Origin: a virus
Virus record (IMG/VR): IMGVR_UViG_3300037228_000016
Location: 1 to 27,707 of that record
Strand: one strand, 5' to 3'
Length of the DNA stretch: 27,707 nucleotides
The notes under the pieces are model-generated. The model had not been told where the DNA came from. It did no database searches and worked only from the letters and a program-made list of their open reading frames with translations. The position numbers were made by a program, and so were the translations under genes. Positions within the stretch are counted from its first letter, which is position 1, and each line of letters begins with the position of its first letter. Positions 14,665 through 22,629 of the stretch are shown here, one piece after another.

Positions 14665-14741
14665 GTCTAAGCCCTGATCGCTTGCCGCGAATCCATCAGG
14701 GTCAGCCCCGGCTCGGATGACACCGGCCGGGGCACCTTTTT
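14665..14741 (+). ncRNA. Putative ~77-nt two-hairpin RNA
   Basis: Hairpin 1 is CCCTGAT (14672-14678) paired with ATCAGGG (14695-14701), with a small inner CGC/GCG stem possible. Hairpin 2 is GCCCCGGC (14705-14712) paired with GCCGGGGC (14726-14733), an 8-bp all-GC stem, followed by ACCTTTTTG. A promoter-like sequence lies just upstream at 14630-14658. No plausible protein gene ends here on this strand, so the terminator needs another explanation. It could be a phage-encoded regulatory RNA or only the terminator of a lost gene. There is no match to a named RNA family that I recognise. Confidence 0.4.
14705..14741 (+). terminator. Rho-independent terminator
   Basis: A perfect 8-bp GC stem (GCCCCGGC / GCCGGGGC) with a 13-nt loop is followed after ACC by five Ts. 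It is orientated on the plus strand, upstream of the DinD-like remnant. Confidence 0.6.
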
Positions 14742-14949
14742 GTACGGCATCCGGTTTCATTTCGTCAAGTCCACGAGATTCGATGTAGTTCGGCCGGCTT
14801 ATTCCAGTCTAATTCCCAGACGAACCAAGCGAAGGCGATCGAGGACGAGCTTTGCTTTCCGGTCCAGCCGTCCCGGTGCATACGCGGGAGGCGATTTCGG
14901 AACACATGAACGCGGGCGAGCGTCCCGCCATCGAGGATTGAGGATCGCC

Positions 14950-15132
14950 TATACAGATTGGCGGAACTTTCAGAACGTCATCTCCAAGGCCAAAGAATCC
15001 TGCGAAAGGGCTGGGGTTCCGGTCGAGGATCACTTCGTTGACGTCACCAAGATGATCGAAAAGGGGAAAGGTGCCCAAGAGCGGGTCAACGACGTGGCTC
15101 TAACTCGCTATGCTTGTTACCTTATTGCGCAG
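14950..15132 (+). pseudogene. dinD-like: DinD-like gene fragment (both ends lost)
   Basis: The translation YTDWRNFQNVISKAKESCER, then AGVPVEDHFVDVTKMIEKGKG and LTRYACYLIAQ, is the conserved N-terminal part of DNA-damage-inducible protein D. Known members continue 'LIAQNGDPRKPEIA...', but here homology stops abruptly at LIAQ (about 15132). The codons before YTDWRNF do not encode the expected 'E.WSAR.L...LGY' start. The frame stays open from 14740 to 15204, but its ends are unrelated. In the 14742-14949 stretch I see only low-complexity frames; one ends REAISEHMNAGERPAIED. It was probably acquired as a moron-type gene and truncated by rearrangement. Confidence 0.75.
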
Positions 15133-15294
15133 CACATTGACGATCGTCCCGTCGCCGCAAGCGCATTCCCAAATCGTGCCGTGGAAGTTTTCGACCCTGA
15201 GTAAGGCGTGAACCGCCTCGGGCGGGCTGGCGTAAAAATCGTTGCGGTGTTCGGCCAGCGGCGCGCGGCCAGATTGGGCGGATTTATCGAGCAT
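15100..15294 (-). pseudogene. N-terminal fragment of a DNA methyltransferase-like gene
   Basis: From the ATG at 15294 (GAGG about 10 nt upstream) the product reads MLDKSAQSGRAPLAEHRNDF, then YASPPEAVHALLRVENFHGTIWECACGDGTIVNVLR, and stops 7 codons later. 'DFY.TPP....ALL..E.F.G.IWE.ACGDG.I..VL' is the start of a phage SAM methyltransferase, with motif I being ECACGDG. Everything after motif I, including the catalytic DPPY-type motif, is missing. Homology ends at 15127-15132, exactly where the DinD-like remnant of the other strand ends. The intact start sequence suggests a recent truncation. Confidence 0.7.
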
Positions 15295-15298
15295 TTCG

Positions 15299-15487
15299 TC
15301 AAGCCTCACTCATCAGCCGCCCGAACGTCGCCGCTTCCCAATCCAGATCGTTGATCCCCGCGGCGAACGCCACGTCGGCAGCGTTGCGGACCGCCAGCAT
15401 GTCATCGTCGTCGTAACCGTCCCCGGACCATCGGGTGCAGACCTGGATGGCGACGCGCTCGCGGCGGGTGGTGTAGGCGTCGCTCAT
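15299..15487 (-). CDS. Small protein, paralogue of the 92-residue protein at 16680
   Basis: The 62-residue product starts MSDAYTTRRERVAIQVCTRW. It shares 24 of 42 aligned positions with the N-terminus of the 92-residue protein upstream of the GHKL gene, including DAYT, RR.RVA, QVC..W.GD, ML and AAD.AF.A. It overlaps the GHKL gene stop (ATGA). It lacks the C-terminal 45 residues of its paralogue and instead ends WEAATFGRLMSEA. The function is unknown. Confidence 0.75.
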   Translation of the reverse strand: MSDAYTTRRERVAIQVCTRWSGDGYDDDDMLAVRNAADVAFAAGINDLDWEAATFGRLMSEA

Positions 15488-16683
15488 AGCGGCTTGCCAT
15501 CCAAGCGCTCGCCAAGGCTAACGAGGCGATCAATCAGAAAATTTTGCATGTCGCGGGTCTCATCTTGAAGGCTATGGCGAAGATGGATGAACTCTTCGAT
15601 CAACGTGCCGGCGACGATCTTCGTGCCCTGCATCAGCGCGCGACGCGAAACGTAGATGCGGCCGCCTTCTGCCATGCCCAAGATATTTGGGCCGAGCGTA
15701 TCGGTGATGATGATTGGATACTCGCTGACAGGGAAGCCGAGCGCGCGGCAGAACTTGACGGCTTTCTTGAGCATTTCGGATTCCACGCCGACAAGCTTAG
15801 TAGTCGCCGGCATCAACTCTGCGCGCTTCTCAGTTTTGTAGCGAACCTTAGCGCTGACATTGACTTGGCCAGTTCGGACCTGAGAAAGACTTTCGACCGT
15901 ATCCAAGAATGTTTTTGTCGGCTTCGGGTTGCCATATGGCGCGCGGAAGTCGAAGCCGTGCTCGTAGTATCGGCGGTCAACGTTGAGGATTTGTCGCAGG
16001 AAGTCCTCATTCTCAGAACAGAGCGCAGAAGCCGAAATCATCGGCGGAAACATGAACGGATATTTTGCCGTTCGATCCTCCGTTAGATCGACAGACTCGG
16101 TAATGTTGTAGGTGAATTTGGAGACTTCGCCTTTCGGCAGACGATGCACGAGAATGCCGCGATAGAAAATGCCGAGGCTCTCGCCCTCGTAAATCTCGCA
16201 ATTCTCTAGCTTAAGCCAAGGCTCGCCAACAATGATAAACGAACTGCGGTTATTGTGCTCTTGCAGGAAGGCGTCGCCGGACACGATAACCCGAGTTGTT
16301 CCCGCCTTCGGCGCTGGTAATTCATCGGCGACATAGACCGTGCCGTGCTCGTCTTTGCAGTTGCAGTAAAGCTCCCGGTAGGCCATCCAGACCTCCCAAG
16401 TCTTGCCGACAGCATCGGTAAAGCCGAGTGGCTCGTCATCCATCGTGATCAGGTTGACAGGCTGATTACGAATCGTGGCCTGCTTGGTCCCGAAGGGAAG
16501 GGTGATCTGCCCGGCCTGCACCATGATCTGATGGCTATTGCGGAGCAGGATCGCGAGCGCGTATTTCAGGCCGGTTCCGAAGAACCCGATTGGGTCATCG
16601 CTTTCCTTAACGCTGACACCGAACGTGCGGATGGCAAGCGGATCGATCTCGCCGGCATTCTCAAAGATGACGAATTTGCTCAC
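15484..16683 (-). CDS. GHKL-ATPase-like protein with C-terminal EExxH peptidase-like motif
   Basis: The 399-residue protein starts FVIFENAGEIDPLAIRTFGV. Residues 33-42 are GFFGTGLKYA, the glycine-rich lid motif (G2 type) of the Bergerat/GHKL ATP-binding fold, and E8-N9 could be the N-box. Middle segments (about 90-260) are alpha/beta. The C-terminus has GRIYVSRRAL at 341-350 and LIEEFIHLRHSLQDETRDMQ at 361-380. This resembles the metal-binding 'HExxH....D.T..F' region at the end of some GHKL-containing ATP-binding proteins, but with Glu in place of the first His. It is flanked on both sides by paralogous small genes with overlapping stop/start codons. The role is unknown; chaperone-like or defence-linked use is speculative. 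Confidence 0.75.
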   Translation of the reverse strand: MSKFVIFENAGEIDPLAIRTFGVSVKESDDPIGFFGTGLKYALAILLRNSHQIMVQAGQITLPFGTKQATIRNQPVNLITMDDEPLGFTDAVGKTWEVWMAYRELYCNCKDEHGTVYVADELPAPKAGTTRVIVSGDAFLQEHNNRSSFIIVGEPWLKLENCEIYEGESLGIFYRGILVHRLPKGEVSKFTYNITESVDLTEDRTAKYPFMFPPMISASALCSENEDFLRQILNVDRRYYEHGFDFRAPYGNPKPTKTFLDTVESLSQVRTGQVNVSAKVRYKTEKRAELMPATTKLVGVESEMLKKAVKFCRALGFPVSEYPIIITDTLGPNILGMAEGGRIYVSRRALMQGTKIVAGTLIEEFIHLRHSLQDETRDMQNFLIDRLVSLGERLDGKPL

Positions 16684-16958
16684 TGCCCGATCTCCCGAAG
16701 TGCCTCGGCTACCGCTTCACAGCCCAGCGAGTTTTCCAAAAATTCCTGAGAGACGATGTGCCCCTCGTCGCATTCGAGGGCGAGCACCTTCTTGGCGACA
16801 TCCTCAGAAATGTCCCTCGCCGTATTCGCGGTGAATGCCATGTCTGCGGCTGCGATGGCGGTGAGCATTTGCTCGTCGGTCCAATCGTCTCCTACCCATT
16901 GGGAGCAAACCTGAGTGGCTACGCGGGCACGGCGTTCGGTGTAGGCGTCGGTCCTCAT
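16680..16958 (-). CDS. Small protein, paralogue of the 62-residue protein at 15299
   Basis: The 92-residue product starts at an ATG with GGAG 9 nt upstream. Residues 4-45 form the shared DAYT.RR.RVA.QVC domain. Residues 46-92 (ARDISEDVAKKVLALECDEG, then HIVSQEFLENSLG) are specific to this copy. Its stop overlaps the GHKL gene start. The invariant Cys and Trp in both copies suggest a structural core. The function is unknown; a partner of the GHKL protein is a context inference. Confidence 0.75.
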   Translation of the reverse strand: MRTDAYTERRARVATQVCSQWVGDDWTDEQMLTAIAAADMAFTANTARDISEDVAKKVLALECDEGHIVSQEFLENSLGCEAVAEALREIGQ

Positions 16959-16977: not shown

Positions 16978-17529
16978 TCAATGGGGCATTTCGATTTGTA
17001 TTTCTTTCTTCCGATAGATCGCAAATAGACGGATCCTCTTTTGCGGCCCATTCATCACACCGATCACGCCAAGCAGCTTTACGGGGAGGTGTTTGGTCGG
17101 TGGAATGAACTCGTGCAGCAGTCCAATCTTGCCGCCGACGCGAGTGCAGCGCGCCAGCTCGGCTAGGACTTTCGTGGCCGAGATATAGGGCAGCGCGTAC
17201 CGTTCAGAATCTTTGGGCGAATAGGGCGGATCCGCAAACGAGGCGCAGAAGGTGCCGTCAGCAAATGGGAGCGAGGATCCAAGAGCCACCACAGAAGGCT
17301 TGCCAATCGGGTTGCCGTCAACCGTGGTGATGCCATCTTCGGGCGGCATGGTTCCGCTGAACCAATGCAGCATCGAACCCCATGGTTTTAGAACCTGTTT
17401 GGCGCGCGGCCAAAACGACTGCGGAAATGCCCCGTAATACTTTCGCATCGGTCGGCCGCAAAACCATGTTCCATGGATGTAGCCGTTTTCCAGAACGGTG
17501 TAGGGCGGAAGATCCGTAACGGCGTCCAT
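16978..17529 (-). CDS. SAM-dependent methyltransferase-like protein (DPPYS)
   Basis: The 183-residue protein carries YYGAFPQSFWPRAKQVL at about 31-47 and a motif-I-like LHWFSG at 54-59. SFADPPYSPKDSERY lies at 97-111 (DPPY catalytic-type motif), and RVGGKIGLLHEF and KLLGVIGVMNGPQKRIRLFAIY follow. This is a compact methyltransferase layout of a type I have seen in phages. Targets could be adenine-N6 or another substrate; the small size and lack of a target-recognition domain leave this open. GAGGA lies 7 nt before the ATG. It sits next to the RNA ligase gene. Confidence 0.78.
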   Translation of the reverse strand: MDAVTDLPPYTVLENGYIHGTWFCGRPMRKYYGAFPQSFWPRAKQVLKPWGSMLHWFSGTMPPEDGITTVDGNPIGKPSVVALGSSLPFADGTFCASFADPPYSPKDSERYALPYISATKVLAELARCTRVGGKIGLLHEFIPPTKHLPVKLLGVIGVMNGPQKRIRLFAIYRKKEIQIEMPH

Positions 17530-17558
17530 TCACGTTTCCTCTGGTCTTTAGACTGAAC

Positions 17559-18677
17559 TCAAATTGCTTCATCTATCACGCGACCCATTGCATAGGATGG
17601 CGTGTAGCCTGGAAGGCGGTTGCCGGTAGGCCGAATAAATCGGAACAACGAATCGCGAGCACGGCCGTCAATCTGTCCGCCGCTCTTGCGCCAGTGGAAG
17701 ATGAAGGGCCGCACATCTGGGTCGAGCGTCGCAAGCGCGAGGCCTATTTCCTTGTCGGGCTTTTCGGCATACTTATCCGCCACCTGAGCCACTTTCTGGG
17801 TGATTTCCTCAATGCGCTCGGACAACTTCGATGTGATAGCATCGAAGTCGCCCCAGAACTCCTCGGGCAAGTCACGGCGGATCGCACCCATGTCATCGCC
17901 TGCCTGCATGGCTTCCCACATAGCTAGAGGCGTACAGCGCGAAATAAGGGAATGGATGCGCTTGTATTCGTCGCCCTTGAGCTTCAATCGAAGCCCATTA
18001 GCGAAGCGAACAACAAAACCCTCCTCGGTGGCCGGCAAAGTTTTTGCGTAGCCAGCGAGGTCTACAAAGGACGTGAAGGCATAGCGCTTTGCGACGCGCC
18101 AGCCGACCATACCGGCGACTGTTTCCAATTGATCGAAGGTCAATTCACTACCGTCTTGGCGATAGGCGCCGAGCATGACCAACTCAGGCTTGGAATAATG
18201 AACCACAATACGGTTTTCGGGAAACACGGCCTCGGTCAGGTAAGTTGTGCCTTGATCCAAGGGACGTAGATCGGCGCTCTCGATAAACTGCTCGGCCCAT
18301 ACTGCCTGTGACGATTCAAACGCGCCCTTGGTTGCAGCGCGCCATTTACCGTCGAAATAGTGGAGGATCGCAAGCGAACCATCGACCTTTTCAAAGGCCT
18401 CGAATGGAAGATCAGGAATCGTGCCGTTGTGTTCGCCGGCATTGAAAAACTTGGTGAAGGGCGTCGCAATGACTTCCTGCCGTTCTGGGTGCAGGATTAG
18501 CCCGCGCGCCATAAGTGAAAATTCATTCCAGCCGTCATCGTGAACGCAGCTTTGTGAATAGACGTAGAGCGCCCTGCCGGTTTTCGGATCATCCTTGCGC
18601 ACAACGATGCCCGCTGTCCGCGCGGCTTCAAGGCCAGTGTATAGCTGTCCGAACGGCATTGATCGTGCTGGATGCAT
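17559..18677 (-). CDS. T4 Rnl1-like RNA ligase
   Basis: The 372-residue protein has the ATP-dependent RNA ligase motifs in order. The upstream RGLILHP...VIATPFTKFFNAGE precedes motif I, EKVDGS, with the adenylated lysine at about 97. YLTEAVFPENRIVVHYSKPELVMLGA follows (motif III region). Motif IV is EGFVVRF and motif V is LRLKLKGDEY. The C-terminal 140 residues are helical, as in Rnl1. It would seal 5'-phosphate/3'-OH RNA ends, classically tRNA cleaved by host anticodon nucleases. No polynucleotide kinase/phosphatase is in the window. The start could instead be GTG 15 bp upstream, which overlaps the preceding stop (GTGA). Confidence 0.88.
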   Translation of the reverse strand: MHPARSMPFGQLYTGLEAARTAGIVVRKDDPKTGRALYVYSQSCVHDDGWNEFSLMARGLILHPERQEVIATPFTKFFNAGEHNGTIPDLPFEAFEKVDGSLAILHYFDGKWRAATKGAFESSQAVWAEQFIESADLRPLDQGTTYLTEAVFPENRIVVHYSKPELVMLGAYRQDGSELTFDQLETVAGMVGWRVAKRYAFTSFVDLAGYAKTLPATEEGFVVRFANGLRLKLKGDEYKRIHSLISRCTPLAMWEAMQAGDDMGAIRRDLPEEFWGDFDAITSKLSERIEEITQKVAQVADKYAEKPDKEIGLALATLDPDVRPFIFHWRKSGGQIDGRARDSLFRFIRPTGNRLPGYTPSYAMGRVIDEAI

Positions 18678-18688
18678 TGTATTTATTC

Positions 18689-19177
18689 TCACTCAGTAGA
18701 GGTCAGTGGGGTCTTGAGCGCGGGCGGCACGTTGAACACTGTATTTTCGCCTTCGCAAAAAACGGTTGTGACCACGTTACTGATACCATTGATGCCCATT
18801 GTCAGGCCGGTGGTGCCATCTGGCGCGCGTACATATTGTTCGCCTGAATCCAGCTTGCCAGACCGTTTTGCCATTCCGGCTATTTCTTCACGGATGGCCG
18901 TGATATCGACGCCTCGGTGCCGCTCCAAAAAACGAACGATGGCGTGATCCGAAATGTGGACACCGTTGCTTGCGATTGTTCCGCGTCTCTGAATTTCGAG
19001 GCGCACTGCGTCGAGCCTTGCGCGCACCTCGTTCATAACCACCGCCTGCTGATTTATCTCGCGGCCTAGCTCATGTTGAAGATTGCGGAGCTTGTCATCA
19101 TCAAGCGCCATGATGGCCTCCATAGCCACGCGCCTAGCAGCACGGCGCTTCGCTTTCATGATGTTTCGCTGGCTCAT
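18689..19177 (-). CDS. Conserved-type phage protein (SDHAIVRFLER family)
   Basis: I choose the ATG at 19177 (MSQRNIMKAKRRAARR) because GAGGAAAA precedes it; the longer frame overlaps RusA. Of 162 residues, the N-terminal 65 form a basic, coiled-coil-like helix. Residues 74-130 contain ISDHAIVRFLERHRGVDITA, which precedes a short beta region ending VTTVF. 'SDHA+.R+LER..G.D+..+R..I' is a widespread small phage domain of unknown role, in my recollection often close to recombination or replication genes. It lies between RusA and the RNA ligase in the same operon. Confidence 0.75.
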   Translation of the reverse strand: MSQRNIMKAKRRAARRVAMEAIMALDDDKLRNLQHELGREINQQAVVMNEVRARLDAVRLEIQRRGTIASNGVHISDHAIVRFLERHRGVDITAIREEIAGMAKRSGKLDSGEQYVRAPDGTTGLTMGINGISNVVTTVFCEGENTVFNVPPALKTPLTSTE

Positions 19178-20752: not shown

Positions 20753-20865
20753 TCGGGCCAACCGGGGAGGATCGATCGGTGGTCGCAGCGGCTTATGCCG
20801 TGGCTGGCCTTATGGCCGCGCTGCTATTCGCCGTCTATGGAATAGGGAGTTTTCTTCATGGCTGA
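20749..20865 (+). CDS. 38-residue single-pass membrane peptide
   Basis: The ATG overlaps the previous stop (ATGA), and GGGAGG lies 7 nt upstream. The peptide MIGPTGEDRSVVAAAYAVAG is followed by LMAALLFAVYGIGSFLHG. Residues 11-36 form one transmembrane helix. The TGA overlaps the start of the ERF gene, so it is well placed as a real gene. The function is unknown; it could modulate the host membrane or an exclusion process. Confidence 0.6.
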   Translation: MIGPTGEDRSVVAAAYAVAGLMAALLFAVYGIGSFLHG

Positions 20866-21652
20866 AACGGCCACTGCTGAACACGTCGAGGCGACGATCG
20901 CCACCGAAGCGCCGGCTGCGCAGCTTCCGGCCGTAGTGCGGCAGGAGCGCCGGCCGCGCGTAGCCTCGCAGAAGGCGCCGCAGTTTCCTGCGGCAATCGC
21001 CAAGTCAATCCTCGCGGTATCCCGCGACATCGGCGAGATCGCCAAGGAAGGCATCAATACCTTCCAGAAATATCGCTATGTGAAGTGGGAGGACATCAAC
21101 CAGAAGCTTTCGCCGCTCCTGTCGCAGCACGATCTCATCATCGTGCAATCCGAGATCAGCCGCAGTCTGCTTGAGGAAAATGCGCAAGGTTCCGTGCTGG
21201 CGATTGTCTATCACTTCACGATCGTCAATGGCGATGGCGAGCAATGGCCGCCGGTCGAATGGACCGGGATCGCGCGGCTGCGCGACAGCAAAGGCGTGTC
21301 CGACGACAAGGCCGCCACGAAATGCCATACCCAGGCGGAAAAGTATTTCTGCATCAAGCAATTCAAAATCCGCGTGGAGGATTCCGACCCGACCGACCGC
21401 GCGCACACGCTCCCGAAGAAAGACGCCCGTGAGCTTTATAGCAAGCTACAGGCTGAGATCGACGAGGCGCAATCGGCAGTCGAGCTCGGCATGTGGGGCA
21501 AGGAGCCGGGAAATCTCACGCGCAAAAAAAGCCTGCCCCCCGATTGGCAGGACATCATCACCACGCGCTACAACGAGAAGCTTTCCGAACTGCAAGGCGG
21601 CCCGAAAGTCATTTGGGACGATCCAGACCCAGAAACCGGCGAGGTCGCGTGA
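20858..21652 (+). CDS. erf-like: ERF-family single-strand annealing protein
   Basis: The product has 264 residues. After a Pro/Ala-rich 45-residue N-terminus, the ERF core runs from about 46 to 165. It has ILAVSRDIGEIAKEGINTF, then YRYVKWEDINQKLSPLLSQHDLIIVQSEI, then YHFTIVNGDGEQWPPVEWTGIARL and KAATKCHTQAEKYFCIKQFKI. The 'Y.YV....+...+.P.L..H.L', '...DG' and 'G.+.TYA.KY.L...F.+' elements are the family signature. It anneals complementary strands in phage recombination. The C-terminus (PGNLTRKKSLPPDWQ and after) is a variable tail. GGGAG lies 8 nt upstream of the ATG. Confidence 0.88.
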   Translation: MAETATAEHVEATIATEAPAAQLPAVVRQERRPRVASQKAPQFPAAIAKSILAVSRDIGEIAKEGINTFQKYRYVKWEDINQKLSPLLSQHDLIIVQSEISRSLLEENAQGSVLAIVYHFTIVNGDGEQWPPVEWTGIARLRDSKGVSDDKAATKCHTQAEKYFCIKQFKIRVEDSDPTDRAHTLPKKDARELYSKLQAEIDEAQSAVELGMWGKEPGNLTRKKSLPPDWQDIITTRYNEKLSELQGGPKVIWDDPDPETGEVA

Positions 21653-22629
21653 TGCTTGTATCCGAACTGATCGCGTCATACCGCACCGATCCGGTGTCGT
21701 CCTATAAGACTTTGCGTTTCAGGACGCGGGAACACTACGATTCCCTGCTCAAGCGCGTGGAGGCTGATCTTGGCGACAAGCAGATCGGCGACATTCGCAC
21801 CCGCGATGTGACGCTGACCTATCAGGCGTGGACGCTGCGTGGTGTCTCAATGGCTCACGCGCTAATCGGCATGGTGCGAACGCTCTGCAACTACGGCAAC
21901 GTCTATCTCGAAAACGACGACTCCATGAGGCTTGCCAGCCGATTGCACGCCATGCGGTTCAAGATGGGCAAGCCACGGCAGTCTCACATCACGGCTGAAA
22001 TGGCGACCGATCTTCGGCAACATGCACGCGATTGGGGTCTGTACTCGATCGCTCAAGCGCAAGCGTTTCAGTTTGAATGTACCCTGCGGCAGCGCGACTG
22101 CATCGGGGAATGGATTCCGACTACCGAGCCCGGCGAGTCCGACACTTTTGATGGCGACTTCAAATGGCTGCGCGGTATCCGCTGGGAAGAAATCGACGAT
22201 CAGTTGATCCTTCGCCATGTGACCAGCAAGCGGCAGAAGGAAGTCGAAATCAATCTGACGCTCGCGCCGATGGTCATGTCAGAGCTTCGCCATGATTTTC
22301 TGATCGTAGAACCCGGCAAGCGCGACCGTCTGCCCAAGAGCGGCCCCGTCATCGTTTCTGAGGCCACGGGGCTTCCGTTCAACGCTTGGGAGTTTCGCAG
22401 GCTATGGCGCGGCTTGGCACGACGCTGCGGCATTCCCGATACTACATTTTCGATGGACACGCGCGCCGGGGCGATCACGGAAGCGTTTAGCTCCGGTGCC
22501 GCTGCGGACTCGGTTCGCAAGTCGGCGACGCATTCCGACCTCTCGACCACCAACCGCTACAGCCGTGGCGACGCAGAAGCCATTGCCGAGGTCATGAGAT
22601 CGCGGGCAGCACTTAGGAGCGCGGGATGA
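21652..22629 (+). CDS. int: Tyrosine recombinase / integrase
   Basis: The ATG at 21652 overlaps the ERF stop (TGATG) and gives 325 residues. Residues 1-110 contain a SAM-like core-binding domain (YDSLLKRVEADLGDKQIGDIRTRDV). The catalytic domain has R148 (TLRQRDCIGEW), K193 (VTSKRQKEV), R271 (FSMDTRAGAITEA), H294 (SATHSDLSTT) and Y303 (NRYSRG). The box II His of the usual HxxR is Met/Asp here (MDTR), a variation I have seen in rhizobial phage integrases. It would insert and excise the prophage. No att site was recognised nearby, and the gene sits inside the early operon rather than at an end. Confidence 0.88.
   Translation: MLVSELIASYRTDPVSSYKTLRFRTREHYDSLLKRVEADLGDKQIGDIRTRDVTLTYQAWTLRGVSMAHALIGMVRTLCNYGNVYLENDDSMRLASRLHAMRFKMGKPRQSHITAEMATDLRQHARDWGLYSIAQAQAFQFECTLRQRDCIGEWIPTTEPGESDTFDGDFKWLRGIRWEEIDDQLILRHVTSKRQKEVEINLTLAPMVMSELRHDFLIVEPGKRDRLPKSGPVIVSEATGLPFNAWEFRRLWRGLARRCGIPDTTFSMDTRAGAITEAFSSGAAADSVRKSATHSDLSTTNRYSRGDAEAIAEVMRSRAALRSAG

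Follow-up and report, generated by a model that had tools for sequence, protein, structure and literature searches.

Few enzyme folds have been studied as much as that of the GHKL ATPases (Hsp90, MutL, gyrase and the histidine kinases), whose ATP-site motifs follow the canonical order N-box, G1, G2. In phages, T4 RIIA counters RexAB. According to published work, the rIIA orthologues combine a GHKL domain with a C-terminus that varies, and they take part in counter-defence (PMC7824862). The minigluzincins have been linked to the proteases Wss1/Spartan, whose targets are proteins bound to DNA (PMC4559962). The family of the protein analysed here, PHROG 8203, is annotated as function unknown, its members being called 'hypothetical', 'HATPase' (Epa38) or 'hydrolase, metallopeptidase' (AN14).

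We analysed a window of 27,707 bases, the IMG/VR virus record IMGVR_UViG_3300037228_000016. Terminase, head-tail adaptor, major head protein, Erf-like annealing protein and integrase genes are all encoded in the window, and because of these genes the phage is probably a temperate tailed phage. The gene for a 399-aa protein is flanked by genes for RusA, an RNA ligase and a methyltransferase on one side and by a replication-initiation gene on the other, and the preliminary description of three small/ATPase/small ORFs with overlapping start and stop codons was correct: 4-base overlaps, GTGA and ATGA, join the 92-aa gene to the ATPase start and the ATPase stop to the 62-aa gene. The 399-aa protein is divided into a putatively permuted GHKL ATPase domain, a transducer-like segment and a zincin-like C-terminal domain. 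Conservation was scored over 67 aligned relatives, down to about 35% identity. The features are as follows.

16680..16958, minus strand: 92-aa orphan small protein, paralogous to the 62-aa protein
15484..16683, minus strand: 399-aa protein of the PHROG 8203 / YuA gp29 family, GTG start
16642..16665, minus strand: G1-like motif, residues 7-14 (F-E-N-A-G-E-I-D); F7 and N9 invariant, G11, I13 and D14 at least 93% conserved
16561..16590, minus strand: G2/ATP-lid motif, residues 32-41 (IGFFGTGLKY); G33, F35, G36, T37, G38 and K40 invariant
16348..16377, minus strand: core RELYCNCKDE (residues 103-112) of the N-box RELYCNCKDEHG (residues 103-114), located after G2
16276..16308, minus strand: T130 strand, residues 126-136, after the N-box; T130 invariant and G136 97% conserved in the 67 sequences, strand in both models
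16069..16086, minus strand: LTEDRT, residues 200-205, transducer-like motif; E202, D203 and R204 invariant in the 67 sequences
15487..15816, minus strand: C-terminal domain, about residues 290-399, minigluzincin-like by Foldseek
15562..15597, minus strand: EEFIHLRHSLQD, residues 363-374, EExxH...D site; E363, E364, H367 and D374 100% conserved in the 67 sequences
15299..15487, minus strand: 62-aa orphan small protein, 24 of 43 residues identical to the 92-aa protein

The 92-aa gene has as its immediate upstream neighbours (16978-18692) a PHROG 3816 methyltransferase-like gene and a T4 RnlA-type RNA ligase gene (PF09511, PHROG 562). The Erf-like ssDNA-annealing protein and integrase genes (20858-22629) are on the plus strand, opposite to the structural genes, which suggests a temperate phage. 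Just downstream of the 62-aa gene (14740-15309), two gene fragments run head-on and meet at about 15,125, a DinD-like fragment on the plus strand (68 of 288 profile positions) and a DNA-methyltransferase fragment on the minus strand (57 of 458 profile positions); either a mosaic joint has truncated both genes, or the assembly is chimeric here.

The 399-aa protein matches PHROG 8203 over its full length (E 7e-108, residues 3-399 to 2-394 of 394). YuA gp29 is a full-length homologue, about 46% identical, with the same domains and motifs; the YuA-like phages differ in the neighbours only: the small paralogs of the window are missing, and the downstream gene that overlaps the ATPase gene is gp30, which is unrelated to them. 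No significant match of the 399-aa protein was detected in Pfam or NCBIfam, PADLOC gave no assignment, and the PDB sequence search returned chance matches alone. Relatives were detected by tblastn in 72 phage records, most of them YuA-like Mesyanzhinovviridae of Pseudomonas and Bordetella, with further relatives in Stenotrophomonas, Synechococcus, Bradyrhizobium, Brevundimonas and Dinoroseobacter phages. The profile scan found 290 IMG/VR contigs with relatives. In 84,980 prokaryote genomes it found just 17 loci, which fit prophages or phage contigs, and the family was absent from all 14 control genomes. Given this distribution, it is a gene of phages and not one of host defence.

Some copies are irregular. 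The ATPase gene of Pseudomonas phage EKU1 (L011:5947-7172) is broken into fragments, and the record of Escherichia phage ERS-1 (L013), flagged as unverified, holds a diverged partial YuA-like copy, perhaps a contamination or error. YuA-like or Vojvodinavirus-like phage regions were found in MAGs of unrelated bacteria (L094 and L095, Anaerolinea; L093, Microbacteriaceae) and are probably mis-binned phage contigs.

The residues invariant in all 67 sequences include F7, N9, G22, K26, G33, F35-G36-T37-G38, K40 and R48 in the N-terminal part, and R103, E104, N108, D111, E112, T130, Y192, E202-D203-R204, E363, E364, H367 and D374 in the middle and C-terminal part. The lid has the GxxGxG pattern of GHKL proteins (G33-F-F-G36-T-G38-L-K40) with the glycines and K40 invariant; the GFFGTGLKYA motif reported in the preliminary description is present, far beyond chance, and its core residues do not vary among the relatives. 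The N-box, overlooked in that description, is the E..N..D helix of GHKL proteins in textbook form, invariant at R103, E104, N108, D111 and E112. At the G1 position of the usual adenine-binding Asp (DxGxG) the protein has Asn9 (F-x-N9-x-G11-x-I-D), and the sister family PHROG 6077 is likewise without the Asp at the equivalent place. The T130 strand may be the equivalent of the GHKL 'GT' strand, and R204 is the proposed gamma-phosphate sensor. Motif and homology support the assignment of the 399-aa protein to the GHKL (Bergerat-fold) ATPases; the earlier GHKL call is thus borne out by the motifs, by the homology to PHROG 6077 and by an rIIA N-box alignment.

Hsp90/HtpG, MutL, GyrB and topoisomerase VI-B share the Bergerat ATP-site motifs with the 399-aa protein, which differs from them in its motif order, its small size and its restriction to phages. 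The order G1, G2, N-box, not the canonical GHKL order, was found in each of the 101 members that have the N-box and G2 in readable form. Upstream of the ATPase start there are only about 11 further in-frame residues (an open frame of 410 aa), therefore no hidden N-terminal N-box is present. The PHROG 6077 profile was matched by all 67 members examined. The PHROG 6077 protein of Acinetobacter phage ABPH49, annotated as 'histidine kinase-like ATPase' and identical in sequence to one in Serratia phage Kashira, has the N-box EAVREILQNAID at residues 21-32, then G1/G2, then LDRDRK. Other members are Abidjanvirus Ab18 ORF34 and a protein of Edwardsiella phage IW-1, and the IMG/VR scan contained no relatives of the ABPH49 protein.

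The PHROG 6077 profile used for hhalign was made from five phage proteins, taken from phage records, and 60 column shuffles per fragment served as controls. Window residues 7-63 (G1/G2) aligned to 49-104 (E 1e-9), residues 82-116 (N-box) to 3-37 (prob 90, E 1.7e-6) and residues 170-248 (transducer) to 192-269, the LDRDRK region (prob 82, E 1e-5). The respective scores were 62.0, 39.5 and 40.2 versus shuffle maxima of 20.2, 22.7 and 22.1, and reversed fragments gave no match. The N-terminus of PHROG 6077 holds the same W..W.A.RE(I/L)..N..D segment, in the canonical position. Judged by these alignments, the segments of PHROG 8203 and PHROG 6077 are evidently homologous and differ in order, and since homologous fragments occur out of order, the best reading of the 399-aa protein is that of a Bergerat-fold ATPase with a circular permutation. 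PHROG 6077 differs in having the N-box first; homology to its C-terminal domain was undetectable, and the five of its sequences that were inspected contain no EExxH. The Mesyanzhinovviridae hold both orders, canonical in Ab18 and permuted in YuA. The N-box fragment also aligned to the T4 rIIA profile at 44-56 (E 4e-5, score 32.9 versus a shuffle maximum of 21.0), the rIIA G1/G2 alignment was marginal (22.0 versus 21.4), and hhalign against single MutL, GyrB, HtpG (partial sequence) and rIIA sequences was uninformative. A literature search, covering mainly open-access papers, found no description of a permuted Bergerat/HATPase fold.

AlphaFold2 modelled the full protein with a mean pLDDT of 90.9 and pTM of 0.77, and residues 1-212 with pLDDT 90.0 and pTM 0.86. 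Model confidence is low at residues 30-34 in the lid, as expected for a mobile lid. The Foldseek search of the PDB with the full model placed Hsp90/Hsc82 at the top (E 1e-3 to 4e-2, prob 0.6) and selecase next; from the aligned chain lengths we infer that the Hsp90/Hsc82 matches belong to the N-terminal part and those of selecase and abylysin to the C-terminus. The ATPase domain alone gave weak matches (E at least 0.1), including Hsp90, topoisomerase VI-B, topoisomerase II and MutL, and the separate domain model did not sharpen the GHKL match. Among the BFVD viral models, six uncharacterised phage proteins (E < 1e-3), RIIA proteins and phage metallopeptidases were matched. The Foldseek comparison depends on chain order, therefore a permuted fold should score poorly; the weak GHKL scores of the predicted structure are consistent with permutation, not proof of it. 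The N-box helix would be placed in the nucleotide pocket.

The C-terminus was matched by Foldseek to selecase (4qhg/4qhi, prob 0.96-0.98) and abylysin (4jiu, prob 0.85) with E-values of only 0.03-0.3; for the selecase match of prob 0.98 the TM-score was about 0.5 by target length and E only 0.03. It is modelled as a minigluzincin-like zincin fold, and the likeness to selecase/abylysin and to the related Wss1/Spartan-type proteases lies in this predicted fold. The domain differs from the minigluzincins in having EExxH...D, not HExxH and a third Glu ligand, and in being fused to an ATPase. EExxH is present in every member with domain and motif intact, and HExxH was never found in any family member. 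The metallopeptidase-like helix with Glu for the first His (LIEEFIHLRH...DETRDMQ), recognized in the preliminary description, was upheld, its residues being invariant. The C-terminal domain is missing in L007, L008, L101 and L106 and the EExxH motif in L103, L104, L105 and L108, and not every member can therefore depend on the activity of this domain. E363, H367 and D374 may form a metal site; alternatively, the domain may be a dead zincin that serves as a platform.

The two small proteins are paralogous, with 24 of 43 aligned residues identical (55.8%, blastp E 8e-12), which confirms the paralogy proposed earlier with a count of 24 of 42. They had zero matches among 50,697 phage records and zero in the IMG/VR contigs, and were not found at the loci of the ATPase relatives, including the closest ones (L015, L002, L016 and L017, 65 to 58% identical); no convincing relative was detected in 754 sampled genomes from two bacterial classes. 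A 22.5-bit match in one genome (L142), lying within an open frame of 764 residues, was taken as chance, and so was DUF2695 for the 92-aa protein (E 0.042). Pfam and NCBIfam gave no significant match for the 92-aa protein, Pfam and PADLOC no match for the 62-aa protein, and no PADLOC family was matched by any of the three proteins. The window is alone among 88 non-redundant family loci in having paralogous upstream and downstream neighbours. An abutting ORF is found downstream in 50 and upstream in 38 of these loci, the kinds being mostly unrelated; a small downstream gene overlapping the ATPase gene is common in the PHROG 8203 family, but the partner itself shows no conservation. The search for a conserved partner gene across the family loci returned highly variable downstream neighbours, with gp30 common only to YuA-like phages. 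The YuA-like gp30, unrelated to the window paralogs, recurs and has a 4-base overlap with the ATPase stop codon (L001:13173-13511; equivalents in L012, L014, L019, L023, L030, L041 and L093-L095), and it is a possible partner candidate for the ATPase in these phages. Across the collections searched, the small genes of the window are a duplicated pair peculiar to this phage, now flanking the ATPase gene, and they belong to no conserved system.

Relatives of the ATPase gene have RecE-like nucleases, RecT/ERF/Sak4 annealing proteins, YqaJ recombinases, primases, helicases and methyltransferases as neighbours. The recombination genes recur near family members, their position not being fixed. The family thus sits in phage early replication/recombination regions; a functional association is suggestive, such neighbours being common for phage early genes.

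Several other explanations of the locus were considered. The preliminary description proposed that the ATPase works with the duplicated small proteins as a three-gene defence, exclusion or chaperone system, an idea that draws on the tight 4-base overlaps and the clear paralogy in the window. The neighbourhood survey, on whether the small genes always flank the GHKL gene, found no other family locus that carries them; the pairing is unique among the 88 loci, relatives up to 65% identical and all searched collections are without the small proteins, and it was this lack of adjacency in homologues that the description itself held to speak against such a unit. The three-gene system is largely refuted, and we give it hardly any credence. 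A defence role is unlikely: PADLOC gave no match, and the gene is in phage early regions, not in host defence islands. The main rival on role is a counter-defence function similar to rIIA, with an early phage GHKL protein blocking a host or prophage exclusion system. T4 RIIA (PHROG 612) shares with the 399-aa protein a phage GHKL N-terminal domain, the GxxGxG motif and a RELxxNxxD N-box, among named phage proteins RIIA ranks best in the BFVD structure search (E 0.015-0.3), the alignment of the N-box fragment to the rIIA profile has a score that no shuffle reached, and a GHKL domain with a variable C-terminus is how rIIA orthologues are described (PMC7824862). T4 RIIA differs in its canonical order, its size (725 versus about 400 aa) and its C-terminus; the rIIA G1/G2 alignment is barely above the shuffles, and the PHROG RIIA families were matched by none of the 67 members, whereas T4 RIIA itself, as a control, matches PHROG 612. 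We consider this role unlikely.

A non-catalytic scaffold, in which a GHKL-derived ATP sensor is joined to a dead zincin for protein binding only, is possible and somewhat less doubtful than the counter-defence role. It would account for the Glu in place of the first zinc-ligand His in every member, for Asn in place of the G1 Asp and for the loss of the C-terminal motif in several members, but E104, N108, R204, E363, E364, H367 and D374 are strictly invariant down to about 35% identity, which argues for selected active sites. It could also be proposed that there is no permutation, the RELxxNxxDE helix having a chance likeness to the N-box in an unrelated fold with a G2-like loop. The weak, order-dependent Foldseek scores against solved GHKL proteins would agree with this; the direct homology to the N-terminal segment of PHROG 6077 (E 1.7e-6, above 60 of 60 shuffles) makes it improbable.

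The best reading of the whole, with a probability of roughly 0.55, is that the protein combines a permuted GHKL switch with a zincin domain and is an ATP-gated remodeller or protease-like factor for the phage. Our favoured guess, based on fold resemblance and neighbourhood, is an ATP-gated protein/DNA remodelling factor serving the phage. The Bergerat fold, in which the N-box helix follows the G1-lid-G2 segment, would work as an ATP-driven conformational switch; behind it there would be a short Hsp90/rIIA-like transducer with the invariant Arg and then the EExxH...D zincin domain. ATP binding by the N-box, G1 and G2 may close a dimer, with R204 sensing the gamma-phosphate, and closure may offer the C-terminal domain, either as the E363/H367/D374 metal site or as a platform that binds without catalysis, to a DNA-associated protein. 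Such action would take place in the phage early replication/recombination programme, for phage benefit. A bolder version, in which the Bergerat circular permutant drives a new metal-dependent class of zincins with EExxH...D, as an ATP-gated phage protease or protein-remover at replication/recombination intermediates, is speculative and in our view quite unlikely.

The main interest of the family lies in its permuted ATPase, joined to a zincin site that is altered but does not vary. PHROG 6077 (canonical) and PHROG 8203 (permuted), both in Mesyanzhinovviridae, would form an evolutionary before-and-after pair, and the zincin site offers a second oddity that can be tested. The permuted family is present in the cultured Pseudomonas aeruginosa phages YuA and M6, so its function is directly testable, and a widespread 'hypothetical' phage gene gains a functional hypothesis.
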